Assembly (NCBI RefSeq): GCF_001435895.1
Contig: NZ_AZFZ01000018.1
Span: 1-44,623 of the forward strand
Reading direction: 5' to 3'
Source of the DNA: Lentilactobacillus parafarraginis DSM 18390 = JCM 14109
Lineage (GTDB): Bacteria; Bacillota; Bacilli; Lactobacillales; Lactobacillaceae
DNA length: 44,623 nt
Below the pieces are notes generated by a model. It ran no database searches. It was not told the origin of the DNA and worked only from the letters and a program-made list of their open reading frames with translations. Both the position numbers and the translations under genes were made by a program. Below are positions 15,966 to 38,265 of the stretch, one piece after another; within the stretch, counting starts at the first letter, position 1, and each line of letters begins with the position of its first letter.

Positions 15966-16097
15966 CGTTTTGTAATTTGTTAAAACTTATGTTAATCAAC
16001 TAACATCAAAATGTCAACTTTCAAGCGGAATTTTTTGAGTTGATCCCCCTTCATTTCCAATTAGTCAGTGCCGTTCTGAAAAATAAGGGATTTCAAA

Positions 16098-23470: not shown

Positions 23471-23495
23471 CTAATCGAAATTTTAATGTGACTAT

Positions 23496-23550: not shown

Positions 23551-24369
23551 CTACTTGTTCGTGATGTTCTCGCCAAAGTACTTCTGAGATAATTTGGCAA
23601 GCGTGCCATCTTTGCGTAACTGTTGCAGAACCTTATTAAATTTAGCTTGGAGCTTCGTATCCTTCTTGTTAAACATTGCGGAGATGTGAACCGGTTCGGC
23701 TTGGGAATCTGAAACTTGGTGATAGTCCAATCCCTTGGTCGAATTACTCTTAGCGTAAGCGTACCAAGCTTCACGAGCATTGATGGTGCCCTTTACCCGA
23801 CCCTGACGAATTAATGCCAAGCTCGTGGTGAAATCTCCTGACGGTACCGTTTTCGCACCTAATTTCTTTGCGAGAGCTTCGTTATTGGTGCCAGTCCCCT
23901 CGGCCAATTTTTGGCCCTTAACATCCGCCAGCTTGTTAATCGTCTTATCGCCGGACTTAGTAATCAACGCATAGCGTGAATAAATGTATGGAGTGGAGAA
24001 GATATAGGACTTTTTCCGTTCTGGCGTTTCAGCAATGTTATTGAGAACCACGTCGTACTTGCTGCTTCCCAAGCCGGCAATTAAGCTGTCCCACTTAGTC
24101 GGAACAAAATTGGCCTTTAAGTTCATCTTCTTGGCAACCGCCTTGCTCAAATCAACTTCAAATCCGGTTAACTTGCCATCCTTACGATATGAGTATGGCG
24201 CATACGTGCCCTCCAGACCAACCGTGAGCTGCTTGGACTGTTTGAGTTCCGAAGTATAGTTTCCCTTGCTTGATGAACTATTTGAACCACAAGCCGTCAA
24301 TAATAGCCCCACTGTAACGACCCCTGCGGCGAGTACTAACCGTTTAAAACCTCTAACTGTTGTCTTCAT
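23551..24369 (-). CDS. amino acid ABC transporter substrate-binding lipoprotein (cystine/methionine-sulfur type)
   Basis: 272 residues. Lipobox LLTAC (Cys27) followed by a Ser-rich spacer, then a SBP_bac_3 domain: LTVGLEGTYAPYSYRKDGKLTGFEVDL and the YIFSTPYIYSRYAL hinge. The TcyA/FliY-like sequence suggests cystine or a related sulfur amino acid as ligand. Third gene of permease-ATPase-SBP; 2 bases separate it from the ATPase gene. GGAGGAG precedes ATG. The Met T-box at the head of the operon supports a sulfur amino acid substrate over other polar amino acids. Confidence 0.85.
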   Translation of the reverse strand: MKTTVRGFKRLVLAAGVVTVGLLLTACGSNSSSSKGNYTSELKQSKQLTVGLEGTYAPYSYRKDGKLTGFEVDLSKAVAKKMNLKANFVPTKWDSLIAGLGSSKYDVVLNNIAETPERKKSYIFSTPYIYSRYALITKSGDKTINKLADVKGQKLAEGTGTNNEALAKKLGAKTVPSGDFTTSLALIRQGRVKGTINAREAWYAYAKSNSTKGLDYHQVSDSQAEPVHISAMFNKKDTKLQAKFNKVLQQLRKDGTLAKLSQKYFGENITNK

Positions 24370-24371
24370 TT

Positions 24372-25121
24372 TTACTCCTCCAAATCTGAAAATGTCATCG
24401 CTGAAATAAAATCTAAAATTCGCTGATTGTCCGTCCCAAAGAAATCAGGTTCCGACCCATCAAACAGAATTTTACCATCTTCCACAAATATAATCTTATC
24501 GGCGACCTGCTTCGCAAATGCCAAGTTATGGGTCACAATAATCATCGACTGCTTTTCCTTGGCAATCTGCAGCAAAACTTTTAACACTTCTAATTCCAAC
24601 TCAGGATCCAACGCACTAGTCGGTTCATCAAGGAAAATGTACTCAGGATGCATCGCTAGGGATCTGGCAATCGCAACTCGTTGCGCCTGACCGCCGGAAA
24701 GCTGAGCTGGATACACATCGGCCTTTTCAGCAAGCCCCACCTTGGCTAGAAGTTCAGCCGCTTCTTTTTTAGCAGTCGCCCGATCCTTATGAAGGACATA
24801 GATCGGCCCCTCCATCACATTTTTAATAACTGATAAATGCGGAAATAGATTGTATCCCTGAAACACCATCTCGGTTTGCCGACGGATATTAAGAATCGTT
24901 GAACTGGAAACCGGCTTTGAAAGATCAATATCCAAATCATCGAAGTGATAATGACCGGATTCTGGTTTCTCAAGAAAATTTAATGATCGCAGCAACGTTG
25001 ATTTACCCGAACCCGATGGGCCGACAATCACAGTTGTCTTATTTTCTGGAAAGGTTGTTGAAATATGGTCAAGTGCTTGGTGGTTTCCGAAAGTTTTCGT
25101 TAGGTTTTCGATTTTTAACAT
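24372..25121 (-). CDS. amino acid ABC transporter ATP-binding protein
   Basis: 249 residues. Walker A GPSGSGKST, signature LSGGQAQR, Walker B YIFLDEPTSALDP and switch His in VTHN. It belongs to the polar amino acid (GlnQ/TcyC) ATPase group. AGGAGG lies 5 bases before ATG, and the gene is 9 bases after the permease stop, so the two are co-translated. It powers the importer formed with the permease and lipoprotein on either side. Confidence 0.93.
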   Translation of the reverse strand: MLKIENLTKTFGNHQALDHISTTFPENKTTVIVGPSGSGKSTLLRSLNFLEKPESGHYHFDDLDIDLSKPVSSSTILNIRRQTEMVFQGYNLFPHLSVIKNVMEGPIYVLHKDRATAKKEAAELLAKVGLAEKADVYPAQLSGGQAQRVAIARSLAMHPEYIFLDEPTSALDPELELEVLKVLLQIAKEKQSMIIVTHNLAFAKQVADKIIFVEDGKILFDGSEPDFFGTDNQRILDFISAMTFSDLEE

Positions 25122-25130
25122 GGCTTCCTC

Positions 25131-25832
25131 CTATTCAGCACTTGTTGTAACATAACGGGATGTGACCTTTTCCAAGTATCCCTGCAGCCAGGTTAATACC
25201 GTACAGAAAATGGCGTAATAGACGGCAACCAAGCTGTACATGACCAGTGGTTGATAGTTTTGCGCGGCAATTTGCTGACTCACTTCAAACATTTCAACAA
25301 TCGTAATCGAAGCCGCCAGCGAAGTATCCTTAACCAAGCTAATAAAGCTGTTGGCTAATGGCGGCAGTGAAATGCGAATTGCTTGTGGTAAAATAATGCG
25401 GCGCAACACAACCGTTTTGGTCATCCCAATTGAATAAGCCGCTTCCCACTGGCCCTCCGGGATCGACAAGATCGATGCCCGAATGGTTTCTGAACAATAG
25501 GCCCCGGTGTTCAGTGAGAAGGTAATAATTCCGGCAATTACCGGGTTTAACTGAATCCCGTTCGGAAAGATCCCCTGAATTTTCAGGTATGGCAGTCCAA
25601 AATAGACGATAAATAACTGGACCAGCAAGGGCGTACTTCGAAATAGCCAAACATAGAAGCGAAAGATTGCTTTTAATATATAGAAGAAACCTTTTTTAGA
25701 TGATAGCCGAACCAAGGCCGTGATCAGTGCGATTACCAACCCGATAATGAATGAAATGATGGCGATTGGAATCGTATATTTAAACCCCGCCGCCAATAGT
25801 TGAGGCGTTGAGCTTTGAATAATGTGCCACAT
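25131..25832 (-). CDS. amino acid ABC transporter permease
   Basis: 233 residues of the HisM/TcyB family with about five membrane helices. The cytoplasmic EAA loop is visible as EAAYSIGMTKTVVLRRIILPQA. A strong AAGGAGG site precedes ATG 25832. First gene after the Met T-box leader. With the ATPase and lipoprotein genes it makes a complete importer, probably for cystine or another sulfur amino acid. Confidence 0.92.
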   Translation of the reverse strand: MWHIIQSSTPQLLAAGFKYTIPIAIISFIIGLVIALITALVRLSSKKGFFYILKAIFRFYVWLFRSTPLLVQLFIVYFGLPYLKIQGIFPNGIQLNPVIAGIITFSLNTGAYCSETIRASILSIPEGQWEAAYSIGMTKTVVLRRIILPQAIRISLPPLANSFISLVKDTSLAASITIVEMFEVSQQIAAQNYQPLVMYSLVAVYYAIFCTVLTWLQGYLEKVTSRYVTTSAE

Positions 25833-25924: not shown

Positions 25925-26200
25925 TAAAAAAGACGTACCCTTACACTTAATGCGTAAAGGGACGACTCTATTAGCCGCGTTACCACCCTATTTTGTATCA
26001 ACGTTGCCATTGACACCTTAAGACACGATCATGTCCGGAATGGTATCGTGATTCCCACGTATCGCGAGCTTGCACCCTTGATAAATTGCTCCGAGCTCAT
26101 CTTCAAGCAAGGCCCCAGTCATCTTTTCACTTACCGATGATCTCTGTCTCAACAGGCATTACTTTACTCTTCTCATCAACGCACTTTCTTTATACACAGA
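25925..26200 (-). promoter_or_regulatory. T-box riboswitch, probable Met (ATG) specifier, controlling the amino acid ABC importer
   Basis: Minus-strand leader. GAAGAGTAAAGTAATGCC pairs across with GGCCTTGCTTGAAGATGAGC; GAA-N-codon reads ATG (26100-26098). Distal loop CGGTAAGTGAAAAG. T-box ATAGGGTGGTAACGCGG (about 25991-25975). The terminator stem AGTCGTCCCTTTACGC/GTGTAAGGGTACGTCT is followed by TTTTTT. Confidence 0.9.
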
Positions 26201-26203
26201 GAG

Positions 26204-26233
26204 ATACTAACAGTTTTATAGTGGCGGTGTCAA
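26204..26233 (-). promoter_or_regulatory. promoter of the importer T-box transcript
   Basis: Minus strand TTGACA (26233-26228), 18 bases, TAGTAT (26209-26204), just upstream of the T-box stem I. It sits only about 27 bases past the stop of the GNAT gene. Confidence 0.6.
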
Positions 26234-26259: not shown

Positions 26260-26679
26260 TTACAAATCCAAATCTAAGTACCGAATATCCGGGCGTGGCT
26301 TAAACCCCTGATGCTCCCAGAAGTGCTGGCCATCTTCATTCCCCACGACAACGAAGAGGCCAACCTTTTCAATCCCTTGCTGCCTAAATCCTTGAGTGAC
26401 CTTGCTGATCAATTGTGACGAGATATGACGTCCTTGATGGTCTTTAGCAACGGCAACATGGTACAAATACCCCTTCCGACCATCAGTGCCACCCAGTGCA
26501 GTCCCAACCACCTGATCACCTTCAACTGCCGCAAAGCAGAGATCAGGATTCCGATTAATAATTTTGGCGATGCCTTTTTCAGAATTGTCCAGGGACCGCA
26601 AATTCATCCCCGGGACACTTTCCCATAGGGCATAGGCGCCCTCGTAATCGGAAACCAGCATTTTTCTAACGCGAACCAT
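26260..26679 (-). CDS. GNAT-family N-acetyltransferase
   Basis: 139 residues. Acetyl-CoA-binding motif A is visible as VAVAKDHQGRHISSQLI and motif B as FWEHQGFKPRPDIRYL. It resembles the YpeA-like single-domain GNATs; acceptor unknown. Last gene of the Met T-box operon, 6 bases after the hydroxyacid dehydrogenase stop. In that setting it could acylate the amino group of an amino acid or a sulfur compound, the reverse of the M20 enzyme encoded in the same operon, but nothing in the sequence proves this. Confidence 0.8.
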   Translation of the reverse strand: MVRVRKMLVSDYEGAYALWESVPGMNLRSLDNSEKGIAKIINRNPDLCFAAVEGDQVVGTALGGTDGRKGYLYHVAVAKDHQGRHISSQLISKVTQGFRQQGIEKVGLFVVVGNEDGQHFWEHQGFKPRPDIRYLDLDL

Positions 26680-26685
26680 CCTTCG

Positions 26686-27690
26686 TCACTCCTCATTTTT
26701 AATTTCATGATCACTGGGACGCCCCTCGATGATGGCCAATGTGTCATCCAGTGACTGCTTGACCATATTTTTAACTGCCGTATTGGTAAAGAAGCCGATA
26801 TGGGGCGTCAATAACACGTTTGGTAATTTCTTAAGGGCGTTGTAATGCGGCACCGGGGTCTGATGATCGAATCGTAAATTAAAAATTTCCGTTTCATTTT
26901 CAACAACGTCCAGCGCGGCGCCAGCAATTTGTTTTCCGTGAAGCGCCGCTAATAATGCATTCGTGTTCACGACCGGCCCGCGCGAGTCGTTAATAAGAAA
27001 CGCTCCGGGTTTCATTAGGTCAAATTGTGCTTCGCCAAGCAAATGGTAGTTCTGCTTGGCATAGTAGACGTGACTCGTCACAATATCAGATTGCTTTAAG
27101 AGGTTTTCCTTAGACGTGTAGGTCAAAATGCCCCGCATATCAGCCCGGGGCGCACGAATATCGTTTCCCAAAACAGTGGCGCCTAACGCATGAAAAATTT
27201 TAGCGACCGTCCCGCCAATCCGACCAACGCCAATTATCCCAATCGTTAATGATGATAATTCCCGTGATCGTAAACCATTCACCACATAATTATTGTCAGC
27301 GATCCGTTGGTTGAATTGGGGAATATGGCGGATCAGCTGCATCGCTTGGGCCAATACCAGCTCGGCAACTGCTGGCGGGGAATAGGATGGCACATTGGTC
27401 ACCCGAAGGCCATTCTGAAACGCCCACTGTAAATTAACCGAATCAATTCCAGCTGAACGACAAGCTAGCTGCTGAATGCCAAATTGATGCAGCTTTTGAT
27501 ACAATTCCGGCTTTTCACTCAGGATACTTCGCTGCTTGTAATCAATCCCGTCATACCCTTGGGCTTGATCAACCGTATCATCGTGTAACTCGGCCGTTAC
27601 ACTATCTACTTGAACATGGTGTTCGGCCGCCCACTCATCAATAAATTGTTGCTCATCATCACGGACGTGGTAGGCCAAAATTTTTGTCAT
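26686..27690 (-). CDS. D-2-hydroxyacid dehydrogenase (D-lactate/D-hydroxyisocaproate type)
   Basis: 334 residues. It follows the D-LDH/D-HicDH pattern: LACRSAGIDSVN, the PSYSPPAVAELVLAQ stretch, NAD motif GVGRIGGTV, catalytic Arg in NDSRGPVV, Glu in DVVENETEIF and His in TPHIGFFTNT. Characterised D-HicDH enzymes of lactobacilli accept 2-keto acids with large side chains, including that of methionine. Start at 27690 with GGGAG 10 bases upstream; 7 bases separate it from the aminotransferase stop. The pairing with an aminotransferase and a second dehydrogenase of the Ldh2 family suggests interconversion of D-2-hydroxy, keto and amino acids. Confidence 0.88.
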   Translation of the reverse strand: MTKILAYHVRDDEQQFIDEWAAEHHVQVDSVTAELHDDTVDQAQGYDGIDYKQRSILSEKPELYQKLHQFGIQQLACRSAGIDSVNLQWAFQNGLRVTNVPSYSPPAVAELVLAQAMQLIRHIPQFNQRIADNNYVVNGLRSRELSSLTIGIIGVGRIGGTVAKIFHALGATVLGNDIRAPRADMRGILTYTSKENLLKQSDIVTSHVYYAKQNYHLLGEAQFDLMKPGAFLINDSRGPVVNTNALLAALHGKQIAGAALDVVENETEIFNLRFDHQTPVPHYNALKKLPNVLLTPHIGFFTNTAVKNMVKQSLDDTLAIIEGRPSDHEIKNEE

Positions 27691-27697
27691 TAATGGG

Positions 27698-28888
27698 TCA
27701 CTCCCTTTCAATTTCAACAAACTGGTGACTGACAAACGCTTGAAGTCGGCTAACTGCGAGGTCTAAATTCGCCATACTCGTTGCGTAACTCATTCGAAAA
27801 TAATTTGAATGACCGCCCGTGAATGCTTCGCCAGGAACGACTGCCACCCCGGCCTTAGTTGCCAATTCTTCAACGAAGGCCATTGCGTTTCCTTTGAAAA
27901 ATTTTGGCACGTGAACGTAGACGTAAAAAGCGCCTTGGGGTGGCACAAAGTCAAAACCAATTTCTGTTAACGCCCGCGTCAAAAAATCACGTCGTTTTTG
28001 GTAAACGGCCTTCATATGCCAACTGTCAGGGGCGCCAAATAAAAATGCTTCCGTTGCCGCGTCCATATTCGGCGTTCCCACTGTCGCCACCGCCGCTTGG
28101 TGGACCTTCGCCAGCTGCCTGATAATCCCGGGATCGCCACACAAATAACCAATTCGCCACCCCGTCATCGCGTATGATTTTGAAACGCTATTCACTAACA
28201 ACGTTTGTTCGGGAAGGTAGCGGGCAATCGAGACATGTTCTCCGGAATATGCCAGTTCGCTGTATACCTCATCACTTAAAACAGCAACCGGATAATGTCG
28301 CAAGACGTTTGCGAGTTCGCGAACCTCATTTTCAGAGTACGTGACACCGGTGGGGTTATTTGGATAGTTCAGCACAACCAGCTTAAGATGTTGACCATAC
28401 TTTTCAAGAGTGGCTTTTAGCACCTTGGGGGTTAACTTGAAGCTTGTTTTCGAAACATCAACGGTTACCGGTACCGCGCCGTTTAACGCCGTGAGCGTTT
28501 TATACAAACTAAACGCCGGTTCGGCGATCAAAACCCGATCACCTTTCTCCACAATGCCATTAAAGACGGTACTGATCGCTTCACTCGCGCCGTTTGTCAC
28601 CACAATCTGAGTGTTTGGATCGTAGTCCAACCCAAATCGGCTGGCAAGATAACTGCTGATGGCGGCCAAAAGATCTGCCGTCCCCCGATTCGGCGCGTAG
28701 TGGGTGTGGTTATTCAAAATGCTTCGCACCGCGGCCAACTTAATATGATCCGGAGTCGGAAAGTCGGGTTCGCCGATTGTCAGATTAACGATATTCGGAA
28801 TCTGACTAAATCGATTGTTTATCCGACGAATCATTGACGGGGTTATTGTTTGAAGATCTGCTTTTACTAATGAAGAAATATCAATCAT
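27698..28888 (-). CDS. class I/II aminotransferase
   Basis: 396 residues of PLP fold type I (AspC/PatA-like). PLP Lys in SVSKSYAMTGWRIGY, the NYPNNPTG loop, SDEVYSEL and C-terminal Arg in YFRMSYA are visible. It resembles the aminotransferases used by lactic acid bacteria for methionine, aromatic or aspartate-type amino acids, but specificity cannot be read. GGGGCGG precedes ATG. In this operon it could aminate 2-keto-4-methylthiobutanoate to methionine. It sits 15 bases after the M20 hydrolase gene. Confidence 0.88.
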   Translation of the reverse strand: MIDISSLVKADLQTITPSMIRRINNRFSQIPNIVNLTIGEPDFPTPDHIKLAAVRSILNNHTHYAPNRGTADLLAAISSYLASRFGLDYDPNTQIVVTNGASEAISTVFNGIVEKGDRVLIAEPAFSLYKTLTALNGAVPVTVDVSKTSFKLTPKVLKATLEKYGQHLKLVVLNYPNNPTGVTYSENEVRELANVLRHYPVAVLSDEVYSELAYSGEHVSIARYLPEQTLLVNSVSKSYAMTGWRIGYLCGDPGIIRQLAKVHQAAVATVGTPNMDAATEAFLFGAPDSWHMKAVYQKRRDFLTRALTEIGFDFVPPQGAFYVYVHVPKFFKGNAMAFVEELATKAGVAVVPGEAFTGGHSNYFRMSYATSMANLDLAVSRLQAFVSHQFVEIERE

Positions 28889-28903
28889 TCAACCGCCCCA
28901 CTT

Positions 28904-30052
28904 TCAATGAAGATTGGCCAATAGACTCTTGGCACTCTGAACAAAGTAGTCGATCCCCGCGGAAATCGTCGCATCTTTTCCCACAAAGTGAGGGTCGTGC
29001 AGATCGGCCGCATCCGGGGCACCATTAGAGCCAATAAACGCAAACGTTCCGGGAATCTGTGCTTCAAAAGTGGCAAAATCCTCACCCGTCATCGTTAATT
29101 CCGGCTTGACGACGGGTTCCTTTAATCCCTGCGCAACAATTTGGGTAATCCGCTGGTCATTATGAATTGGGTATGCGCCAACGCTCCAGTCAATGGCCGC
29201 AGTTTCGTCATAAGCCGCAGCCACGTTGTTGACAATTGCATAGAACCGTTCTTTAACCAAATCCGTTACTTCGTCAGAAAACGTCCGAACGGTGCCCTCA
29301 AACGTTGCCTTATCTGGTAACACGTTCCAAGTTTTGCCAGCGGAAACCTTGGTCACACTGACAACCACCGCGTCGAACGGATTAGAACTGCGACTGACGA
29401 TGGTTTGCAGCTGGGAAATAATCGCGGCCGCCGCAACAATCGGATCGTGCCCCTTTTCTGGGCGAGCGCCATGTGACCCGGCGCCATGGACGGTGACTAG
29501 GAACCGGTAACATCCCGCCATAAGCGGCCCAGCCTGCAAGGCAATTTGACCAACCGGCAAGTTAGGATTGTTGTGAAAGCCAACAATGGCCGCCACCCCG
29601 TCCAATACGTGCTTTTCCAGTACCTGATCGCCGCCATGACCAGCTTCTTCAGCCGGTTGAAAGAGAAGCCGGATGTCACCGGCAAGGTCGGCTTTTTGTT
29701 GATTCAAAAGATTGGCTGCTCCGAGTAAACTTGAAAAATGAATGTCGTGACCACAGGCGTGCATGACACCAGCGTTTGCCGACCTAAAAGGTAGATCAGT
29801 CTGTTCATCGACTGGCAATGCATCAATATCGGCACGCAAAGCAATCGTTGGTCCTGGCTGACCGCCCTTAATTTCGGCAAGCAGGCCGGTCGTCAATTCC
29901 GTTGGAACGACCGGAATTCCCCAGCTACTGAGAATGTCTTTGATCCGGTTAGTGGTTTCAAATTCCTGATTGGACAGTTCCGGGTGTTGATGAAACTGAT
30001 GTCGCAAATGAATTATTTCGGGTAAAATATCAGTCTTCGTTTTCGTTGTCAA
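28904..30052 (-). CDS. M20-family amidohydrolase (N-acyl amino acid hydrolase type)
   Basis: 382 residues. Metal-binding HACGHD, Glu pair in FQPAEEAGHGG and His in GFHNNP fit the M20D (hippurate/N-acyl-L-amino acid hydrolase, YxeP-like) group, which frees amino acids from N-acyl forms. The start is unusual: TTG at 30052 lies 8 bases after GAGG, while an upstream GTG overlaps that site, so TTG is chosen. The site is built into the end of the preceding sulfhydrylase gene, 10 bases away, implying translational coupling. No signal peptide, hence cytoplasmic. Confidence 0.87.
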   Translation of the reverse strand: MTTKTKTDILPEIIHLRHQFHQHPELSNQEFETTNRIKDILSSWGIPVVPTELTTGLLAEIKGGQPGPTIALRADIDALPVDEQTDLPFRSANAGVMHACGHDIHFSSLLGAANLLNQQKADLAGDIRLLFQPAEEAGHGGDQVLEKHVLDGVAAIVGFHNNPNLPVGQIALQAGPLMAGCYRFLVTVHGAGSHGARPEKGHDPIVAAAAIISQLQTIVSRSSNPFDAVVVSVTKVSAGKTWNVLPDKATFEGTVRTFSDEVTDLVKERFYAIVNNVAAAYDETAAIDWSVGAYPIHNDQRITQIVAQGLKEPVVKPELTMTGEDFATFEAQIPGTFAFIGSNGAPDAADLHDPHFVGKDATISAGIDYFVQSAKSLLANLH

Positions 30053-30062
30053 AATCGTCACC

Positions 30063-31367
30063 TCATTTAAATGCCGTTGAAATCGCCTGATCCAGATCCG
30101 CAATCAAATCATCACTGTCTTCTAAGCCAATCGATAATCGTAACAGCTGATCGGTGATGTGGCTGGCTGCCCGCCGTTTTACGGGCACTTCTCGGTGAGT
30201 AATCTTGATCGGATTCACAATTAGGGAACGACTATCGCCAACGTTTGGTAAATACAGAAATAATTTCACGGAATCGACCACCGTTGCCGTTTGTTCGGCG
30301 GTGCCATCTAGTTCGAAGGACAACACCGTCCCAATCCCTTTTGGAAAGGATACTTTTGCCAAGTCATACTGATCTGAATCCGGCAACCCGGTGTAGTAAA
30401 CGGCTTTAACATGGGGATTGGTTTGCAAATAGTTTGCGATTTTTAAACTTGTCGCAACCTCCTTATCCAACCGTTCGGTGATCGTTTCGAGTCCCACTAA
30501 TTCCAGATAAGCTTCAAAGGGGGCGAGAACGGCGCCCATTAATCGCAGATACTTCTGCCGAATCCGTTTAATGTAAGCCCGCTTTCCATACACATCAATG
30601 AAGCTGTAATGTTTCGGATGGGCCGCGCTCTTCAAAATAAACTCGTTTTCTTTAAATTGTGGAAACTTTCCGCCAGCCCAGTCAAAGTGACCGCCATCAA
30701 CAATCAAACCGGAAACCACGTTACCGTGACCACTAATCCCCTTTGTCGACGAATACACCACAATGTCGGCGCCGTGCTTAATCGGCTGAAATAAATACGG
30801 CGTTGAGAACGTATTATCAATAATGAGTGGAATCCCGGCTTCGTGGGCAACCTTGGCCAGCCCGTCAACGTCCGAAATCTTAGTGGTTGGGTTGGCCACA
30901 CTTTCCGCATAGATCGCTTTGGTGTCCGGCCTAATCACTGATTTAACTTCATCAAAATCATTGATATCATCGACAAGGTCAAAATCAATGCCGTACTTGG
31001 GAAATAGGGTTTCAAACTCATCCAGAGCGGCCCCATATATGTCGTATGGGGCAATAATTCGACCACCACCTTCAGCAACGTTTAAAATGCTGTAGGTAAT
31101 TGCGGCCATTCCGGAACCAACCGCAACGCTGTCAACGCCACCATCCAGTGCCGCAATTCGCTGTTCCAGGACAGACACAGTTGGATTGCCCACCCGCGAA
31201 TACATGTAGGCATCCGGCACATTCCCCTGGGCGACTTCCTCACCCCGTTTAGCTGAGCCTAGCGTGAAGGCCACATTCTCATAGATTGGAACGGTGGCTG
31301 AATGATGATGTTGGGCTGGGTCATAACCACCATGAATTCTGAGCGTGTCAAATTTTTCTTCTGCCAA
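30063..31367 (-). CDS. O-acetylhomoserine sulfhydrylase (MetY-like)
   Basis: 434 residues, Cys/Met-metabolism PLP enzyme. YSRVGNPT, SGMAAITY and the PLP Lys in YSSTKGISGHGN are typical, and the long insert around residues 220-260 is the OAHS hallmark. It makes homocysteine from O-acetylhomoserine and sulfide, or methionine from methanethiol. Six bases follow the Ldh2-type gene stop. Its presence behind a Met T-box supports a methionine function for the whole operon. The separate metC-like gene at 36755 has the shorter cystathionine-lyase form. Confidence 0.9.
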   Translation of the reverse strand: MAEEKFDTLRIHGGYDPAQHHHSATVPIYENVAFTLGSAKRGEEVAQGNVPDAYMYSRVGNPTVSVLEQRIAALDGGVDSVAVGSGMAAITYSILNVAEGGGRIIAPYDIYGAALDEFETLFPKYGIDFDLVDDINDFDEVKSVIRPDTKAIYAESVANPTTKISDVDGLAKVAHEAGIPLIIDNTFSTPYLFQPIKHGADIVVYSSTKGISGHGNVVSGLIVDGGHFDWAGGKFPQFKENEFILKSAAHPKHYSFIDVYGKRAYIKRIRQKYLRLMGAVLAPFEAYLELVGLETITERLDKEVATSLKIANYLQTNPHVKAVYYTGLPDSDQYDLAKVSFPKGIGTVLSFELDGTAEQTATVVDSVKLFLYLPNVGDSRSLIVNPIKITHREVPVKRRAASHITDQLLRLSIGLEDSDDLIADLDQAISTAFK

Positions 31368-31373
31368 ATTACT

Positions 31374-32456
31374 TCACTCCTTAATTGGCGTTCCGCTAAG
31401 CCGATCGGAAATTCCAAGCCGGTTCGCGATTTCGTTTGCTTGATCGATCGTCGTTTGGTCAATCACAACGCCATTTTTTAAATTACAATCAATATTTTGA
31501 ATTTCCCGATCACCTGGAACGCGAATGGGATTGGCCCCTGAATGGGCTAAATGTCGGATCCGATCCAGCATATCGCTCAATGACGCTTCTATTTCTTGAG
31601 GATCTCCGAATAATTCCGGATCCAACGCCAGGAAGAAATGACTGATATCATGATTCTTATGACCAAGATCGGCAGAAATTGACCCCTGAGCAAGGATGCC
31701 TGTTAAACACTCAACGATTAATGAATTACCAAATCCTTTATAATTCGCATTCGCTTCCCGTTGGCCTCCCAAAGGAAGAATCCCGCCAATTCGACGGCTT
31801 CGCGCCAACTCATCCAAAACGGTTTGCGGATCAGTTTGCGTTTGCCGGTCACCATTCACCGCCCACTCTCCTGGGATTGATTGGTTATTCTTAAGCAACA
31901 CTTCAATTTTCCCCAGCGAAACCGTTGACGTGGCCGCATCAAAAACAAACGGGGCATTTTGGGTTGGAAACGCAAACGCGAGTGGATTACTGCCAAGAAA
32001 CGGTTGGTTCGCCCGTGGCGGGACAAGTAAAGGGTTTGTGTTAGTCGCGACAATGCCGATTAATCCGGCTTTGGCCGCCATCCGGGCATAGTATCCGGCA
32101 GCTCCAAAATGGTTTGAATGCCGCACGACCCCCACTGAAATTCCGTGACGCTGTGCCTTACTCACCACGTGATCCATCGTAAAAGCTGAGACGAGCTGGC
32201 CCATCGTGTGGTTAGCGTCCACCAGCAGGCTTGACTTGGTGTGCCTGACAACGGTCCACTTGTTGTATGGAATAATCGCTTTTGCCCGAATTTTTCGATC
32301 GTACATCGCTAGTCGCTGAATACCGTGGGAAGTAATTCCCCGCAGATCCGCGTCGGTTAGTGTTTCCGCAATCAAGGCGCTATCAGTTTCCGAAAACCCA
32401 TAGCCAAGATAAACATGGGCAATGAAATTTTTCACTGTCGCTGCTGCAATTTTCAC
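31374..32456 (-). CDS. Ldh2-family malate/L-lactate/L-sulfolactate-type dehydrogenase
   Basis: About 360 residues. DADLRGITSHGIQRL, VRHSNHFGAAGYYA and TNTNPLLVPPR are signatures of the Ldh2/YlbC/ComC NAD(P)-dependent family, which oxidises 2-hydroxyacids, usually of one stereochemistry, opposite to the D-2-hydroxyacid enzymes. Start: GTG 32456 has GAGG 8 bases upstream; ATG at 32477 is possible but lacks a site and nearly touches the previous stop. Located between SBP2 and MetY. Malate is the textbook substrate but has no reason to be under methionine control. Confidence 0.85.
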   Translation of the reverse strand: MKIAAATVKNFIAHVYLGYGFSETDSALIAETLTDADLRGITSHGIQRLAMYDRKIRAKAIIPYNKWTVVRHTKSSLLVDANHTMGQLVSAFTMDHVVSKAQRHGISVGVVRHSNHFGAAGYYARMAAKAGLIGIVATNTNPLLVPPRANQPFLGSNPLAFAFPTQNAPFVFDAATSTVSLGKIEVLLKNNQSIPGEWAVNGDRQTQTDPQTVLDELARSRRIGGILPLGGQREANANYKGFGNSLIVECLTGILAQGSISADLGHKNHDISHFFLALDPELFGDPQEIEASLSDMLDRIRHLAHSGANPIRVPGDREIQNIDCNLKNGVVIDQTTIDQANEIANRLGISDRLSGTPIKE

Positions 32457-32479
32457 CGCGGCCACCTCTTTTCCCATCC

Positions 32480-33508
32480 CTAATCGTCGTAATATGCCTT
32501 ATTCACCAGTTGTTTCACGTTGGTACCTGCCTTTAAGAACCCTGCCTGCTTCAATTGGTTAGCGTAATAGGTAACATCCTGTTTACCCTTAGACTTCTTC
32601 AGGCCGAAATGATAACTGGCAATTAAGTTGGCAACGTTCTTTTGGTTAACAAACTGACTGCTTGGAACATATTTCTTCTTTAACAAAATGGATGCCGTCT
32701 CTTGAGGATGCTGATTGATCCACTGGGCCGCCTCCTGATAGGCCTTCACAACCGCTTTAGCCTTTTTTGGACTTTGCTTTGTTAACTTGTTGGCCAAGTA
32801 GAGATAACAACACGACCCATCCTTCTTCATGCCCATCTTGGCCATGGCATCGCTGCCTTTGCTGTTGTTGTTATCAACAATCACCCGAAAATGATCCTCT
32901 TTAATCGCTTGATAGGCATACGGATCCACGTTGCCGATGGCATCAACCTGCCCCTTCTGAGCGGCCTTTGCCAATAAATCATAATCGTAAGTTTTCCAAG
33001 TCACGCCGGTCTTTGGATCGATATTGGCATGCTGAAGGGCAATTGAAGCAACGAACTGAGGGGTTGATCCCTGACCAGGAGTCGCAATTGTCTTACCCTT
33101 CAGGTCGTTCACCGTCTTAATTGGTGAATTTTTGGGGACCAATACCTGAATACATCCCTGATGAATGCCGCCGGCAGCTTGAATCTGGGCACCGTTTTGA
33201 ATGGCTGGCAAATATTGAAAATCACCATTGAGGGCGTCATATTTACCACTGGCAAACCCCGCTTCGAGGTCGGAAATGTTGGTTGGCTTAGCAACCAAAC
33301 TGGCCTTAATGCCATTTTTCTTAAAGAATCCCTTTTCGTAAGCAATGTAGTTTGGGGCGCCACAGATCGACCCGTTCTTGGCCGGAATGGTAATTGCCCC
33401 ATTTTTGTAACCCTTTGTTGCCGCGGACTGTTTGTTGCCACAACCGCTAAGTCCACCAGCCACTAATAGTAACCCCAAAATACCCATCACAATTTTATTG
33501 AATTTCAT
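32480..33508 (-). CDS. SsuA/NMT1-like substrate-binding lipoprotein with four extra cysteines (copy 2)
   Basis: 342 residues. Lipobox LSGC (Cys23), then an NMT1/SsuA-type periplasmic binding fold with repeats such as YIAYEKGFFKKNG, LEAGFASGKYDALNGDF and LKGKTIATPGQGSTPQ. Besides the lipid Cys the mature protein has Cys49, Cys119, Cys233 and Cys234 (in SICGAP, HQGCIQ and GSCCYLYL). The same four are kept in its paralogue at 35398-36444. Fourth gene of the operon, after the ATPase. Family members bind sulfonates, nitrate or thiamine precursors; none is proven here. A thiol, disulfide or metal-bound ligand is possible. Confidence 0.85.
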   Translation of the reverse strand: MKFNKIVMGILGLLLVAGGLSGCGNKQSAATKGYKNGAITIPAKNGSICGAPNYIAYEKGFFKKNGIKASLVAKPTNISDLEAGFASGKYDALNGDFQYLPAIQNGAQIQAAGGIHQGCIQVLVPKNSPIKTVNDLKGKTIATPGQGSTPQFVASIALQHANIDPKTGVTWKTYDYDLLAKAAQKGQVDAIGNVDPYAYQAIKEDHFRVIVDNNNSKGSDAMAKMGMKKDGSCCYLYLANKLTKQSPKKAKAVVKAYQEAAQWINQHPQETASILLKKKYVPSSQFVNQKNVANLIASYHFGLKKSKGKQDVTYYANQLKQAGFLKAGTNVKQLVNKAYYDD

Positions 33509-33564
33509 GCGCCTTCACTCCTCAACACGCTGATCTTTCAGCGCTTCTTTAAACGATAACCACC

Positions 33565-34335
33565 CTAAATCGTTTCTGATATGGGTTTCTTTCCAAAATT
33601 CAGCTTATCTTGAATCGCCCTTCTAAATTCTAGGAATTGATCACTTGTCCGATCACGGGGAAACGTTAATGGATTTGTCACAACCTCTTTGATTCGACCA
33701 GGCCGTGGTGTCATCACCACAATCCGGGTTCCCAAATAGATTGCTTCATCAATATCATGGGTCACCAGCACCATCGTCGTTTGCGTTTGTTTCCAAACCC
33801 GGTGAATGACGTCCTGAACATCGGCCCGGGTAAAGGCATCCAACGCGCCCATCGGTTCGTCCAATAGTAATAATTCGGGATTCATAATGATTGACCGCGC
33901 CAAAGCTGCCCGTTGTGCCATCCCACCGGAAACCTGATGGGGATAGGCCTTTTCAAATCCCTTGAGCCCCATTAACTCGATGTAATGGGCCACCAGATTC
34001 CGATCGTAATGCCGCCCATGAACCGCTTTTAAGCCGGCGCTAATATTGTCACGAATCGTTTCCCAGGGAAACAAACTTCCGTGCTGAAAGACGTATCCTC
34101 GGGAGGCATCCGGACGGGTGACCAGCTGATCATCAACCGTCACTTTCCCAGTTTCCGGTTGGTCTAGTCCCGAAATTAGTCGTAGCAGCGTCGTTTTCCC
34201 GCAACCAGACGGACCAATGATCGAGATAAATTCACCGGATCCGACACTTAAATTAATATCTTCCAATACATTAATCCGTTCACCGTTATTATCGTGTAAA
34301 ATTCGGTTAACGTTTTGGATTGTTAATTGAACCAT
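33565..34335 (-). CDS. SsuB/TauB-type ABC transporter ATP-binding protein
   Basis: 256 residues. Walker A GPSGCGKTT, signature VSGGMAQRAAL, Walker B LLLLDEPMGALDAF and switch His in VTHDIDEA. The group energises importers of sulfonates, nitrate, taurine and thiamine precursors. AAGGGGA precedes the ATG. It is 24 bases after the permease and followed by SBP copy 2, giving the order SBP1-permease-ATPase-SBP2. The second SBP may widen the ligand range of one transporter. Confidence 0.92.
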   Translation of the reverse strand: MVQLTIQNVNRILHDNNGERINVLEDINLSVGSGEFISIIGPSGCGKTTLLRLISGLDQPETGKVTVDDQLVTRPDASRGYVFQHGSLFPWETIRDNISAGLKAVHGRHYDRNLVAHYIELMGLKGFEKAYPHQVSGGMAQRAALARSIIMNPELLLLDEPMGALDAFTRADVQDVIHRVWKQTQTTMVLVTHDIDEAIYLGTRIVVMTPRPGRIKEVVTNPLTFPRDRTSDQFLEFRRAIQDKLNFGKKPISETI

Positions 34336-34359
34336 TGTCAGCCATCCCCTTTGCGTTTG

Positions 34360-35382
34360 CTAAACCTTCGAACTTTTCCGCCATCTTAATGCATACTCCT
34401 GAAGCTTATTCAGGAAACTAAAGATAACTGAGAATAAAATTGCCATAATCACAATTGCCGCATAAACCTGGGTGTAGTTACCAACGCCTTTGGCCCAGTT
34501 GATATACCACCCCAAGCCAACTTTGGCGCCAATCATTTCGGAAATCACCAGCATGGTAAATGACAGTCCCATCGCGGTGAAGATACCAATGAAAATGTTC
34601 GGAAGAGCTCCGGGGATCACAACCTTACGCATGATTTGAAATTCAGAAAAGCCCAAGGTCCGCGCGGATTCGAAGTAGTCCGATGAAATGCTTTGAACGC
34701 CACCAATGGTCATAAAGGCAACCGGAAACCAAACCGCAAACGCAATCAAAAAGATTTCCGCTAAGTAACTCGTTGGAAAAATCACCATGGTCAACGGCAT
34801 CCACGCAGCCGCCGGAATAATCCCAATGACCTTGAGAAATGGAAATGACCAGTAATTAAACTGACGGTAACGGCCCATATAGAGGCCCAGGACCACCCCG
34901 ATCAAGGTTCCAACGATAAAACTAACCAGCCAAAGTCCCAGTGACGACCAAGTTGATGCGATGAGTAACTTTTGGTCGGTTTTAATCTGATCCAGGATCT
35001 GAGCAAAACTTACAAAAAACGGCAATTTAATCATCGCGAACTTCTCAGTCAGTAAATCCTGACCGATCAACACCACTCCCAAGAGGGCGTTCAGCTGCGC
35101 AAAGTGACCGCTGTACAAGCGGATTTTCCCCTTTGTGACCGACCCAATTCCGTATACGATCAGTAGATAACCAAAGTAAGCGGCTAAAAATCCTTTATAC
35201 GCACCGTTATTGACCAGTTCTTGAGAATGCACCGTGACATTTTCGAAATAGGCCGCCGCAACGGTCACGAGGCTCAGAACATTCCAAGTTAATCGCCATG
35301 GTTTCCAGTATTTAGTTTGCACCTCGTCCTTTTTAGCTGCCGGACTGCGATGCTTCTTTGATAGCGTGACTGCGTCTAACAT
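34360..35382 (-). CDS. SsuC-type ABC transporter permease with extra N-terminal helices
   Basis: 340 residues, longer than the usual 250-280 of SsuC/TauC. The N-terminal ~100 residues add two or three membrane helices before the standard domain. The EAA loop is visible as ESARTLGFSEFQIMRKVVIPGA. GGAGG lies 7 bases before the ATG, and the gene is 15 bases after SBP1. It forms the channel of the importer with the ATPase that follows. Substrate unknown. Confidence 0.88.
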   Translation of the reverse strand: MLDAVTLSKKHRSPAAKKDEVQTKYWKPWRLTWNVLSLVTVAAAYFENVTVHSQELVNNGAYKGFLAAYFGYLLIVYGIGSVTKGKIRLYSGHFAQLNALLGVVLIGQDLLTEKFAMIKLPFFVSFAQILDQIKTDQKLLIASTWSSLGLWLVSFIVGTLIGVVLGLYMGRYRQFNYWSFPFLKVIGIIPAAAWMPLTMVIFPTSYLAEIFLIAFAVWFPVAFMTIGGVQSISSDYFESARTLGFSEFQIMRKVVIPGALPNIFIGIFTAMGLSFTMLVISEMIGAKVGLGWYINWAKGVGNYTQVYAAIVIMAILFSVIFSFLNKLQEYALRWRKSSKV

Positions 35383-35397
35383 GATGGGGCCTCCAAT

Positions 35398-36444
35398 CTA
35401 GTCATCCAATTTCGGATTCCAATAAGCTTGTTTCAACAATTGCGCGTTCTTCGTATTCTTCTTTAAATAACCGGCCTCTTTAAGTTGGCTAATGTAATAG
35501 TTCAGATCCGATTTACCCTTATTCAAATTCAGGTCAAAGTGTTCGTCCTTTAGGATCTGGGTTACGTTAGCAACGTTAATGAATTTCGTTTTCGAGACGT
35601 ACCCCTTATTCAGTTCAATTTTCGCGGTTTCTTCCGGATGCTGATTGATCCACTGAGCGGCTTCCTGGTAGGATTTCACCACTGCCTTGGCCTTCTTGGA
35701 ATTAGACTGAATCAGCTTGTTTGACAGGTACAGGTAGCAGCATGATCCCTTTTTCTTCATTCCCATCTTGGCCATCTGCGCGTTACCGGCATTATTATTG
35801 TTATCAATGATTGCTTTAAAACCATCCTGTTTTTGTGCTTGATAGGCGTACGGATCAACGGTTCCGATGGCGTCAACCTCACCCTTTTGAGCTGCTTTAG
35901 CCAGCAAGTCGGTCCCAAAGACTTTCCATGTCACGTCCTTCTTTGGATCAAGGCCGGCATGCTGCAGGGCAATTGAAGTGACGTATTGGGGTGTCGATCC
36001 CTGGGCTGGGATGCCAATTGTCTTTCCCTTCAAATCCTTAACGCTTTTGATACTGGAATTCTTTGGCACCAGTAACTTGATACAGCCTTGATGAATCCCA
36101 CCAGCAGCTTTAATTTGGGCGCCGTTTTGAATGGCTGGCAAATACTGAAAATCGCCATTTTGCACGTCATATTTGCCACTGGCAAACCCGGCTTCCAAAT
36201 CACTGATATCCCGCGGGTTGGCAACCAGGTTTGCCTTTAGCCCGTTTTTCTTAAAGAAGCCCTTCTCATAAGCAATATAGTTGGGGGCGTTACAGATGGA
36301 CCCATCCTTTGCCGGGACGGTAATTGAACCATACTTATAATCCTTAGTTGTTTGCTGCTTGGCTGAACTGTTCCCACACCCAGCCAACGTAACTGATAAT
36401 GCCAATAAACCCGCGATACTTCCCAATACTCTTCCAAATTTCAT
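35398..36444 (-). CDS. SsuA/NMT1-like substrate-binding lipoprotein with four extra cysteines (copy 1)
   Basis: 348 residues. Lipobox LAGC and the same fold and Cys pattern as SBP2 (SICNAP, HQGCIK, GSCCYLYL); the two are clearly homologous over their whole length, also at DNA level. Start at ATG 36444 (GGAG 11 bases upstream); a TTG two codons earlier with a shorter spacing is an alternative. First gene of the long operon, immediately after a Met T-box. Extracytoplasmic cysteines are uncommon in lactobacillar lipoproteins, so these four probably matter for ligand binding. Confidence 0.86.
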   Translation of the reverse strand: MKFGRVLGSIAGLLALSVTLAGCGNSSAKQQTTKDYKYGSITVPAKDGSICNAPNYIAYEKGFFKKNGLKANLVANPRDISDLEAGFASGKYDVQNGDFQYLPAIQNGAQIKAAGGIHQGCIKLLVPKNSSIKSVKDLKGKTIGIPAQGSTPQYVTSIALQHAGLDPKKDVTWKVFGTDLLAKAAQKGEVDAIGTVDPYAYQAQKQDGFKAIIDNNNNAGNAQMAKMGMKKKGSCCYLYLSNKLIQSNSKKAKAVVKSYQEAAQWINQHPEETAKIELNKGYVSKTKFINVANVTQILKDEHFDLNLNKGKSDLNYYISQLKEAGYLKKNTKNAQLLKQAYWNPKLDD

Positions 36445-36474
36445 CCTCAAACGATCTCCTATCTCACATCAATT

Positions 36475-36735
36475 TAAAAAACGCCCCGTGCCGCTTGCCG
36501 CGACCCAGGACGTTTTTCAACGTGTTACCACCTTTGTTTAAACAACCCTCACAAGTTGTTTCTCTGCAAGAAAATACTTTCTCATACCCGATAACGGGGG
36601 TGCCGATGACGCTTCACGATTCGGCGTCATAAGTGCTCGCGGACCATATTCCCTGAAAATCAATTGCCGGTTTTCACCATCTCCGGCTCTCTGTACATCA
36701 ATTAATCAGGTACTCATCCGTTCAACGCATCTAAA
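36475..36735 (-). promoter_or_regulatory. T-box riboswitch, probable Met (ATG) specifier, controlling the ten-gene operon
   Basis: Minus-strand leader. Stem I: GGATGAGTACCTGA opposite TCAGGGAATATGGTCC; GAA-N-codon gives ATG (36647-36645), base helix GGA/TCC. T-box AAACAAAGGTGGTAACACG (36540-36522). Terminator AACGTCC/GGGGCGTT with a GC-rich inner stem, then TTTTTT. Stem I begins about 20-35 bases past the metC stop with no terminator between, and no clear promoter is visible, so it may be reached by read-through. Confidence 0.9.
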
Positions 36736-36754: not shown

Positions 36755-37924
36755 CTAATCGGTTACCTCACTAACGGGTTCCGATAACCGGTCGAGGCTT
36801 TGGGTTAAATCACCAATTAAATCTTTGGGGTCCTCAATTCCCACCGATAACCGGACCAACTGGTGGGTAATCCCGGCTTTCAACTGCTCTTGGGGCGAGA
36901 GTTCCGCGTGAGTCATCTTGTACGGTAACTCAATTAAACTTTCAACAGCCCCCAAGCTGACTGCTAACTGGATCAGGTTCAAGTTTTCAACAAACTTGAT
37001 GGCGTCAAACCCCTTTTGCAATTCAAACGAGATGATCCCACCATAACCTTTGAGTTCCGCGGTCGCAATTTCATAATCCTTCGTCCCGGCAATTCCAGGA
37101 TAGTAAACCTTGGCGATTTCCGGACGGCTCTGAAGGAAATTGACGATTTTGGCGGCATTGCTGACATGTCGGTCTAATCGAACAGCTAATGTCTGGATAC
37201 CCCGCCGAATGAGATTCGAGTCAGCGGGCGACAGTACCGAACCAATGCCGTTTTGATTAAAGTAAATTCGGTCAGCAATTGCTTGATCCCTGGCAACCGC
37301 GATCCCAGCGACAACGTCGGAATGACCACCCAAATATTTGGTTGCTGAATGAACGACGATGTCAGCGCCAAGATCTAATGGCTGCTGCAGATACGGGGTT
37401 AAAAATGTGTTATCCACGATCGTCAGTAACCCATGGCGTTTGGCAATCTTAGAAATTGCCTTCACACTGGTCACCTTTAACAACGGGTTGGCAACCGTTT
37501 CAAAGTAAATTGCCTTTGTCGTTGACTGAATGGCGTTTTCAACGGCCGCCAAATCTTGGGTATCAACGGACGTCACCTTCAAATCCCAGCGCTTAAAGAA
37601 CTGGTTGATTAGCCGAAAGGTTCCACCATAAATGGTGTTGCCAATCACAATGTGATCTCCCGGCGAAAAGATTCCTAAAACAGCGTGAATGGCGGCCAGC
37701 CCCGACGAGAACGCAAATCCTTTCGCGCCGTTTTCCAAGGCAGCTAACTGATCTTCCAAATAGTTTCGGGTCGGATTACCGGAACGGGCGTAGTCCCACG
37801 TGACCTTGGCATCGACCTTCGGAAAAATAAAGGTTGATGAATTGTAAATTGGCACGTTAACCGCACCCGTCTGATTATCATGTTGCGAACGTCCGTGAAC
37901 TAATCGTGTATCAAATTCTGTCAT
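36755..37924 (-). CDS. metC: cystathionine beta/gamma-lyase (MetC-like PLP enzyme)
   Basis: 389 residues. YARSGNPTR, SSGLAAIHA, PLP Lys in HSATKYLGGHSD and the C-terminal VRLSVGIED region place it in the trans-sulfuration PLP family. It would cut cystathionine to homocysteine (beta-lyase) or cysteine (gamma-lyase); sequence reading alone does not separate these or cystathionine gamma-synthase. Start at 37924 with GAGGAA 6 bases upstream; the frame extends 7 codons further. It has its own promoter and Met T-box, and the next T-box operon follows directly, so methionine starvation is the signal. Confidence 0.87.
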   Translation of the reverse strand: MTEFDTRLVHGRSQHDNQTGAVNVPIYNSSTFIFPKVDAKVTWDYARSGNPTRNYLEDQLAALENGAKGFAFSSGLAAIHAVLGIFSPGDHIVIGNTIYGGTFRLINQFFKRWDLKVTSVDTQDLAAVENAIQSTTKAIYFETVANPLLKVTSVKAISKIAKRHGLLTIVDNTFLTPYLQQPLDLGADIVVHSATKYLGGHSDVVAGIAVARDQAIADRIYFNQNGIGSVLSPADSNLIRRGIQTLAVRLDRHVSNAAKIVNFLQSRPEIAKVYYPGIAGTKDYEIATAELKGYGGIISFELQKGFDAIKFVENLNLIQLAVSLGAVESLIELPYKMTHAELSPQEQLKAGITHQLVRLSVGIEDPKDLIGDLTQSLDRLSEPVSEVTD

Positions 37925-37943
37925 ATCAATTTCCTCGCTTTCC

Positions 37944-38195
37944 ACAAAAAAAGTCCCTGCGCAACCGAAGTTGCTCAGGGACGATTTTTATCGTGTTACC
38001 ACCCGTATTCGCATCGATGTCACCACCGATACCTCAAAGACACAAACATGCCCGGAATTTTATCGTGCTTCCCACGTACATCAAGCTTTCACTTTCAGTA
38101 ATTGCTCAGAGCTCATCTTCAAAGAACGTTCCTGCCCATCCTCGCACCAACGATGGTCGCTTTCATTCAGTACTGATTCTCCTACTCTTCTCTTC
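37944..38195 (-). promoter_or_regulatory. T-box riboswitch, probable Met (ATG) specifier, controlling metC
   Basis: Minus-strand leader. GAAGAGTAGGAGA opposite TTCTTTGAAGATGAGCTC; GAA-N-codon gives ATG (38116-38114), identical in this region to the importer T-box at 25925. T-box ATACGGGTGGTAACACG. Terminator GTCCCTGAGCAAC/GTTGCGCAGGGAC followed by TTTTTTT. Confidence 0.92.
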
Positions 38196-38236
38196 ATCGC
38201 AAATAATATTAAAATTTAATTAGATTAATTGCCATG

Positions 38237-38265
38237 ATGTTACCCTGAGATTGAAAGGGTGTCAA
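38237..38265 (-). promoter_or_regulatory. promoter of the metC T-box transcript
   Basis: Minus strand TTGACA (38265-38260), 17 bases, TAACAT (38242-38237). It lies 29 bases beyond the htpX stop, with no terminator between. Confidence 0.65.

Follow-up and report, generated by a model that had tools for sequence, protein, structure and literature searches.

What might a lactobacillus gain from an operon that seems to be under methionine control and that joins an ATP-binding cassette (ABC) importer to a deacylase, an acetyltransferase, a sulfhydrylase-like enzyme, two hydroxyacid dehydrogenases, and an aminotransferase? Such an operon lies in Lentilactobacillus parafarraginis DSM 18390 = JCM 14109, in a window (the whole analysed stretch of contig NZ_AZFZ01000018.1, 44,623 nucleotides) from a draft genome (3.08 Mb, 254 contigs) in which 47 T-box matches were found. 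A first-pass annotation had described it as a ten-gene unit behind a Met T-box that would recover methionine from its hydroxy, keto, and N-acyl analogues. We give about an even chance to the reading that the operon is an organic-sulfur salvage system induced by methionine starvation. In its best form, a cystathionine gamma-synthase/gamma-lyase/beta-lyase type pyridoxal phosphate (PLP) enzyme (CGL) and a divergent O-acetylhomoserine sulfhydrylase paralogue (MetY2) would make up a sulfur-fixing core, with the dehydrogenases and the aminotransferase as add-ons.

The ten genes and the Met T-box are present, all on the minus strand and in the order claimed. After the T-box come a first substrate-binding protein (SBP1), a permease, an ATPase, a second binding protein (SBP2), an Ldh2-type dehydrogenase, MetY2, an M20 deacylase, an aminotransferase, a D-2-hydroxyacid dehydrogenase (D-HADH), and a GNAT protein (Table 1). 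With the preferred starts (TTG 30052 for M20, ATG 27690 for D-HADH, and ATG 36444 for SBP1), the intergenic distances in this order are 15, 24, 56, 2, 6, 10, 15, 7, and 6 bases, so that the upper end of the range of 6 to 56 bases given earlier stands and its lower end drops to 2.

Methionine T-boxes before the operon and its neighbours

The T-box at 36503-36734 passes the gathering score of Rfam RF00230 (108.2 vs 93 bits), and its specifier reads GAAUAUGG, identical to GAAUAUG in the luxS leader of the same genome. The register was calibrated on 30 T-boxes of this genome, whose downstream proteins were named by eye and not in every case assigned. The GAA-x-codon register gives GUA for valS, GUA and AUC for branched-chain carriers, CGU for argS, and AUG for two yxjH genes, a MetQ-like gene, and luxS. 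The leaders of pheS, tyrS, and serS fit only with other specifier offsets and the assignment was incomplete, so the register alone is no proof of Met specificity; L008 gave no clear specifier. GAA-x-AUG-G was found at all nine named loci with a T-box match directly before SBP1, by a script that sought GAA-x-AUG with only base x free and could not have shown other codons; specifier strings taken without the AUG condition (L061, L063, L064, and L066) agree with GAA-x-AUG. Over the L. parafarraginis leader and these nine, base x is U in six, A in two, and G in two, and its variation beside a constant AUG argues against a tyrosine specifier (UAU), a candidate that was dropped. No T-box match stands directly before SBP1 in L091, L092, or L093. 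The operon leader is probably a Met-specific T-box, predicted from its sequence to respond to uncharged tRNA-Met, and the retention of a Met T-box in relatives agrees with the role in methionine supply proposed earlier.

The annotation had counted one such T-box; its AUG specifier holds, and two further Met T-boxes flank it. T-box 1 precedes the CGL gene, which lies directly upstream of the ten-gene set, and T-box 2 (that of the operon) starts 20 bases past the CGL stop. A promoter-like site precedes T-box 1 but not T-box 2, from which we infer a single transcript with two serial T-boxes. When six genomes were compared (L. parafarraginis, Lentilactobacillus hilgardii, L. farraginis, and three Companilactobacillus species), a site with at least 9 of 12 consensus positions was found before the CGL T-box in all six, and none in the gap to T-box 2 or within the 150 bases that end CGL. 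A missing consensus match across 150 bases means little alone; the scant room in Companilactobacillus is the stronger point (first AGTA past the CGL stop at 40, 46, 37, 6, 9, and 9 bases in the six genomes). At L081, the AGTA within the T-box context GAATGAGTA stands 16 bases past the CGL stop. In L088-L090 (Liquorilactobacillus and the neighbour L090), permease, ATPase, and SBP2 come straight after CGL, and in L091 SBP2 does, with no T-box match in between; in S. collinoides CGL is situated inside the operon. Probably, then, two Met T-boxes in series gate one 11-gene transcript (T-box 1, CGL, T-box 2, and the ten genes).

T-box 3 precedes a polar amino acid/cystine-type ABC transporter downstream of the operon, whose ATPase is nearest to TcyN and whose binding protein is nearest to a cystine-binding model, both below cut-off. 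A cystine-type transporter is found within the same cluster in L134, L139, L146, and L154, and the one in the window is likely a partner unit. The number of T-box matches in the window thereby comes to five; the other two, both on the minus strand, are at 23228-23471 (GUA, Val), before a gene reading like ketopantoate reductase, and at 15728-15972 (AUC, Ile), before a gene reading like a branched-chain amino acid carrier.

Table 1. Features of the operon and its flanks in the window
Feature	Coordinates	Strand	Basis
Promoter-like site TTGACA-17-TAACAT before T-box 1	38237..38265	-	10/12 consensus
Met T-box 1 (GAAG-AUG-A), before CGL	37974..38206	-	RF00230, 68.1 bits, E 8.7e-13, below gathering score 93
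CGL	36755..37945	-	NCBIfam models shown, all below cut-off
Met T-box 2 (GAAU-AUG-G), the T-box of the first-pass annotation	36503..36734	-	RF00230, 108.2 bits, E 4e-23
SBP1, NMT1/SsuA-superfamily binding lipoprotein	35398..36444	-	family model/domain matches, tree
ABC permease (BPD_transp_1)	34360..35382	-	family model/domain matches
ABC ATPase	33565..34335	-	family model/domain matches
SBP2, second binding protein	32480..33508	-	family model matches, tree
Ldh2-type dehydrogenase (PF02615)	31374..32477	-	domain matches
MetY2, divergent O-acetylhomoserine sulfhydrylase paralogue	30063..31367	-	profile scores, alignment
M20D deacylase, nearest solved relative YxeP/ScmP	28904..30052	-	family model, comparison with solved structures
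Class I aminotransferase, nearest solved relative 4my5	27698..28888	-	family/domain matches
D-HADH	26686..27690	-	domain matches
GNAT N-acetyltransferase	26260..26679	-	family/domain matches
Promoter-like site TTGACA-18-TAGTAT of next unit, before T-box 3	26204..26233	-	consensus scan
Met T-box 3 (GAAG-AUG-A), before cystine-type ABC transporter	25955..26188	-	RF00230, 81.5 bits, E 3.1e-16, below gathering score 93
Polar amino acid/cystine-type ABC transporter	23551..25832	-	permease 25131-25832, ATPase 24372-25121, SBP 23551-24369

MetY2 and the gene modules nested around it

When 301 genomes were searched with a profile of the operon MetY, 32 matches, from 31 of the genomes, scored 615-845 bits, and the remaining matches listed (cut-off E 1e-80) reach at most 406 bits, which is a clean split. 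Against TIGR01326 (cut-off 495.1 bits), MetY2 scores 438.2 bits and the ordinary MetY1 of the same genome 644.2 bits. MetY2 belongs to the same PLP enzyme family as the MetY of direct sulfhydrylation by MetA and MetY (PF01053 matched at 385 bits), but it is only 39% identical to MetY1 and has about seven additional residues near 242-258; K209, which we take to be the PLP lysine, is invariant in alignment A6. MetA and MetY1 adjoin each other on contig 197 of this genome, so MetY2 is an extra paralogue and, at the level of sequence, a lineage distinct from MetY1. At this locus (L153 1752-8572, on contig C197), the MetA-MetY1 pair adjoins genes reading like arginine biosynthesis, and a T-box match lies upstream of MetA (C197:18629-18881). 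MetA (PF04204) was detected in 12 of 13 genomes with the module or the transporter, L. parafarraginis included, and in 18 of 22 further MetY2 genomes, while MetX above cut-off was found in none of the 13. GNAT was considered as a substitute homoserine acetyltransferase and set aside, there being no gap to fill in 12 of the 13 genomes; the idea stays alive for the four of 22 MetY2 genomes that have no MetA match.

Genes within 9 kb of MetY2 were tabulated at 38 loci (the 32 profile matches and six named-genome loci), using identity thresholds to the window genes (55% for M20 and 60% for CGL). CGL was found at 29 loci, M20 at 19, a binding protein of the operon family at 15, GNAT at 15, D-HADH at 13, Ldh2 at 11, the aminotransferase at 10, and a GST-like protein at seven. 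These genes form nested modules: GNAT and the aminotransferase occur only with M20 (15/15 and 10/10), and Ldh2 and D-HADH only with GNAT (11/11 and 13/13), an association whose p-values overstate its strength because the 38 loci are mutually related. M20 proteins of 46-49% identity are present near MetY2 in L143, L144, L145, L148, and L152, and the nesting is intact when they are included; CGL-like proteins of 50-52% identity occur in L134, L139, and L087/L154. Since some loci reach the end of a contig or stretch (e.g., L085, L089, L131, L145, and L148), absences are upper bounds.

Several other genes were observed in these neighbourhoods. The GST-like protein, a GST_C_2 protein of about 300 residues in which an ACEWHP motif is often found close to the start, stands beside MetY2 in L144 (7523-8425, domain matched), L088, L137, L141, L142, L143, and L145. 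In L142, two adjacent genes behind a Met T-box (1970-4020), the first a URO-D match and the second similar to it by its start, lie upstream of a cystine-type transporter and CGL-MetY2. The gene just upstream of the CGL-MetY2 T-box in L151 (11252-12169) matches polyphosphate kinase 2 (PPK2), and the gene in the same place in L147 (11298-12206) resembles it by start and length.

Candidate substrates and routes to methionine

The salvage reading can be laid out as follows. Uncharged tRNA-Met would open the two serial T-boxes on one 11-gene transcript. SBP1 and SBP2 would share one permease and ATPase, SBP1 binding a substrate usable without the enzymes and SBP2 the substrate of the enzymes. M20 and its partner GNAT may act on the N-acyl group that a derivative of a sulfur amino acid carries, and the two dehydrogenases and the aminotransferase could convert 2-hydroxy or 2-oxo forms in the direction of the amino acid, or serve to get rid of carbon. 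The cysteine or thiol recovered might then be turned by CGL and MetY2 into homocysteine (with methanethiol, into methionine), and homocysteine would be methylated by YxjH. An importer, a deacylase, and enzymes of keto and hydroxy acids are all present, which bears out the salvage character of the earlier proposal.

For both binding proteins the best model is SsuA (TIGR01728; 121.4 bits for SBP2 and 108.1 for SBP1, below the cut-off of 163.5). SBP2-type proteins occur in 13 loci, all with M20, and SBP1-type proteins also in transporter-only loci. In a tree of 26 rows, the 12 SBP1 rows, including the transporter-only ones, form a clade with 100/100 support; SBP2, sampled with 11 of its 13 proteins (two split ones were left out), was not recovered as a single clade, and the root is uncertain. 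CNAPNYIA is found in 12/12 SBP1 rows and CGAPNYIA in 10/11 SBP2 rows, the eleventh being a short frame. The 15 binding proteins of alignment A1 share four invariant cysteines (C53, C123, C237, and C238 of SBP1), and two Companilactobacillus SBP2 proteins outside that set have no GSCC or GACC string. Naming a substrate from the SBP1 fold was abandoned, as the predicted model (mean pLDDT 74.1) matches binders of many ligands. These SsuA scores, the occurrence of the transporter alone behind Met T-boxes in some loci, and the best match of Ldh2 to an L-sulfolactate dehydrogenase model, below cut-off, might suggest a booster of homocysteine synthesis, in which the importer brings in a sulfonate or small sulfur source that MetY2 and CGL fix, the other genes being loosely attached. 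This appears improbable, however, because M20, GNAT, and the dehydrogenases are nested rather than loosely attached, no sulfonate monooxygenase model was matched in the operon, and the fold search matches other binders besides those of sulfonates.

M20 passes the cut-off of the M20D amidohydrolase family TIGR01891 (353.3 vs 153.75 bits), and its nearest solved chain is YxeP (1ysj, 329 bits; the next, 216). It may be classed by sequence as a YxeP/ScmP-type deacylase, a kinship that does not prove the same specificity. ScmP (YxeP) deacetylates N-acetylcysteine, and relative to this its activity is 2.8% with N-acetylserine and 0.96% with N-acetylmethionine (PMC12757645). The scm/yxe operon of Bacillus subtilis serves S-(2-succino)cysteine and has a 2SL variant (PMC9706529, PMC12757645); it may resemble our operon in combining an N-acetyltransferase, an M20 deacetylase, and an ABC importer for sulfur recovery from modified cysteine, while our operon adds MetY2, CGL, two dehydrogenases, an aminotransferase, and Met T-box control. 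GNAT, M20, and ABC genes are present here, GNAT as no more than a candidate relative of YxeL, and the ABC type within the operon differs. A scm/yxe locus was defined in PMC9706529 by at least three of YxeK, YxeL, YxeMNO, YxeP, and YxeQ. Family and domain scans found no match to YxeK, 2SL, or YxeQ among the ten operon genes (YxeK was not searched genome-wide), and the ten genes thus differ from that locus in having no YxeK or 2SL to break the C-S bond.

A link between the two systems is suggested by L137 (G298), where MmgE/PrpD comes first behind a Met T-box, next cystine-type transporter genes and a Lyase_1 protein, and then MetY2-M20-D-HADH-GNAT, the run ending with a GST-like protein and another M20. 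The best NCBIfam models of this lyase are XcbD and adenylosuccinate lyase, mostly below cut-off, with purB slightly above (331.7 vs 326.2). In the yxe/scm variant, a Lyase_1-type enzyme replaces YxeK as S-(2-succino) lyase (available part of PMC9706529), and we infer the same role for the L137 lyase from its superfamily and context. Of 35 genomes, five have a close relative of it (at least 67% identity), which in three of the five lies no more than about 10 kb from MetY2. Two clusters behind Met T-boxes in other Lactobacillaceae look yxe-like, with MmgE/PrpD, M20, a cystine-type ABC transporter, and a fumarase-superfamily lyase (L137, 1425-15658, and L092, 1-7882); the L137 lyase was scanned, and the L092 lyase resembles it by its start. 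Such clusters suggest that S-(2-succino)cysteine is used for methionine there.

The dehydrogenases bear most directly on the earlier scheme, in which methionine is rebuilt directly from D- and L-hydroxy, keto, and N-acyl forms and MetY is incidental. Ldh2 (PF02615 matched) scores 226.9 bits against its best model, L-sulfolactate dehydrogenase NF040650 (cut-off 500). D-HADH (PF02826 and PF00389 matched) scores 278.3 bits against the D-lactate dehydrogenase subfamily PRK08605 (cut-off 356), and its closest solved relative is the D-lactate dehydrogenase 4xkj. At an alignment position that we read as part of the substrate pocket, D-HADH has Lys in 14/14 sequences and D-HicDH has Leu; this Lys was dropped as a sign of acidic substrates, since the solved relatives 2yq4 and 4prk also align Lys. 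For the aminotransferase, the best models are PRK07309 and aminotransferase A, with scores below cut-off, and its nearest solved relative, 4my5, is a putative amino acid aminotransferase. At the 15 GNAT loci, both dehydrogenases are present together in nine and at least one dehydrogenase with the aminotransferase in nine, the other six having a dehydrogenase but lacking the aminotransferase within 9 kb (it may sit elsewhere). These co-occurrences and the aminotransferase match speak for the earlier scheme, as do the good activity of CtBP1, a relative of D-2-hydroxyacid dehydrogenases, on the methionine keto acid (available text of PMC6303947) and the deacylation of N-acyl amino acids by M20D enzymes (available text of PMC12757645). 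However, the scheme leaves MetY2 and CGL idle, although MetY2 loci hold CGL in 29/38 and M20 in 19/38; the aminotransferase is missing from 6/15 GNAT loci; three Companilactobacillus loci lack the dehydrogenases, aminotransferase, and GNAT altogether; YxeP/ScmP has only about 1% activity on N-acetylmethionine; and the pocket Lys departs from the Leu of D-HicDH, a weak point given 2yq4 and 4prk. With MetY left jobless, a route that is often incomplete, and this low deacylase activity, hydroxy-, keto-, and N-acyl-methionine are not specifically supported as substrates, and we consider the scheme unlikely. It fits the dehydrogenases and the aminotransferase best, whereas the salvage reading best fits MetY2, CGL, M20, and GNAT, and both could be valid for different substrates.

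CGL-type lyases release 2-oxo acids, and CGL stands beside MetY2 in 29/38 loci, so the dehydrogenases and the aminotransferase might instead form a disposal or redox branch that reduces or aminates 2-oxobutyrate or pyruvate from such lyases, to which the kinship of D-HADH with 4xkj would be suited. Yet only 11 of the 29 CGL loci have at least one dehydrogenase (D-HADH in nine and Ldh2 in eight); the other 18 indicate that CGL does not need them, and the dehydrogenases track GNAT and M20 instead, making this explanation decidedly improbable. We also see as quite unlikely a more specific, new and oxygen-independent form of salvage, in which the paired dehydrogenases would turn an imported N-acyl 2-hydroxy-acid thioether into a 2-oxo acid, whose thiol would be lost by elimination and then captured for homocysteine or methionine by a MetY2 of changed substrate, with two serial Met T-boxes gating one transcript.

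Returning to organic-sulfur salvage as the preferred reading, several observations weigh against it. The transporter is found without the enzymes, and sets of M20, GNAT, and dehydrogenase without the transporter (5 of 19 M20 loci). Promoter-like sites are frequent here (37 found vs 22 expected in 15.5 kb). GNAT resembles a YpeA-type model, at 79 bits (cut-off 124). The only candidate C-S cleaving enzymes of the operon belong to the CGL/MetY2 family, and the best match to the L137 lyase in the L. parafarraginis genome has just 32% identity. In the fold search, the binding protein matches binders of thiamin/HMP as well as those of PQQ, sulfonate, and nitrate/bicarbonate, so that it singles out no substrate; MetA matches are absent from 4/22 further MetY2 genomes, so MetY2 need not use MetA-made acyl-homoserine; and the dehydrogenases are left without an explained job here too.

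Known Met T-box systems and occurrence in relatives

In lactobacilli (L. paracasei and L. plantarum), Met T-boxes with AUG specifiers, as in our operon, have been described before metE-metF, yxjH-luxS, metQ genes, and cystine-type ABC genes with metC, and transporter substrates have been predicted from the specifier (PMC6004538, PMC2494555). The units given in the available portions of these two studies include neither M20, GNAT, a hydroxyacid dehydrogenase, MetY2, or an NMT1/SsuA-type importer, nor serial T-boxes spanning a gene. Contiguous tandem T-boxes likewise place one gene set under two T-boxes, but the survey of these, in its available text (PMC12452182), counts riboswitches within one intergenic region, whereas here the whole CGL gene lies between. 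Searches of open-licence PMC full text on the operon, on the use of 2-hydroxy-4-methylthiobutanoate (HMTBA) by lactobacilli, and on S-alkylcysteine salvage returned no description of the operon, in line with what the first-pass annotation had stated, and an earlier Met T-box listing of some genes is possible. The parts are known families, and there are precedents for Met T-boxes, for tandem T-boxes, and for salvage operons with GNAT and M20; what is apparently new within that literature is the way the genes are combined, together with the MetY2 lineage and the arrangement of T-boxes in series. If the salvage reading is true, it would show how such lactobacilli, whose habitats are wine, cider, sap, and silage, get methionine once free amino acids run out. 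It would also name a second MetY lineage and an unusual regulation in which one transcript passes two methionine checkpoints, and would bear on sulfur off-flavours and on what becomes of modified sulfur amino acids when food and feed are fermented.

SBP1 matches of at least about 60% identity were found in 13 of 301 Lactobacillaceae genomes. Its own genus is represented by 15 listed genomes, of which L. parafarraginis alone has one, so the distribution is patchy. Megablast against PLSDB, which leaves distant similarity unsearched, gave no match for operon copies on plasmids. A scan of named genomes gave 16 loci, the nearest being those of L. hilgardii (SBP1 90%) and L. farraginis (SBP1 88%). 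Conservation of the gene set beside Met T-boxes, which the annotation had suggested looking for, holds in full for L. hilgardii, with the identical ten-gene order; L. farraginis has the same order with several frames interrupted, perhaps by sequencing errors. It does not extend to the three Companilactobacillus species, which have the transporter, MetY2, and M20 without Ldh2, the aminotransferase, D-HADH, or GNAT (Companilactobacillus furfuricola also without SBP2), nor to L. plantarum, S. folii, and one S. odoratitofui locus, where the transporter alone stands behind a Met T-box.

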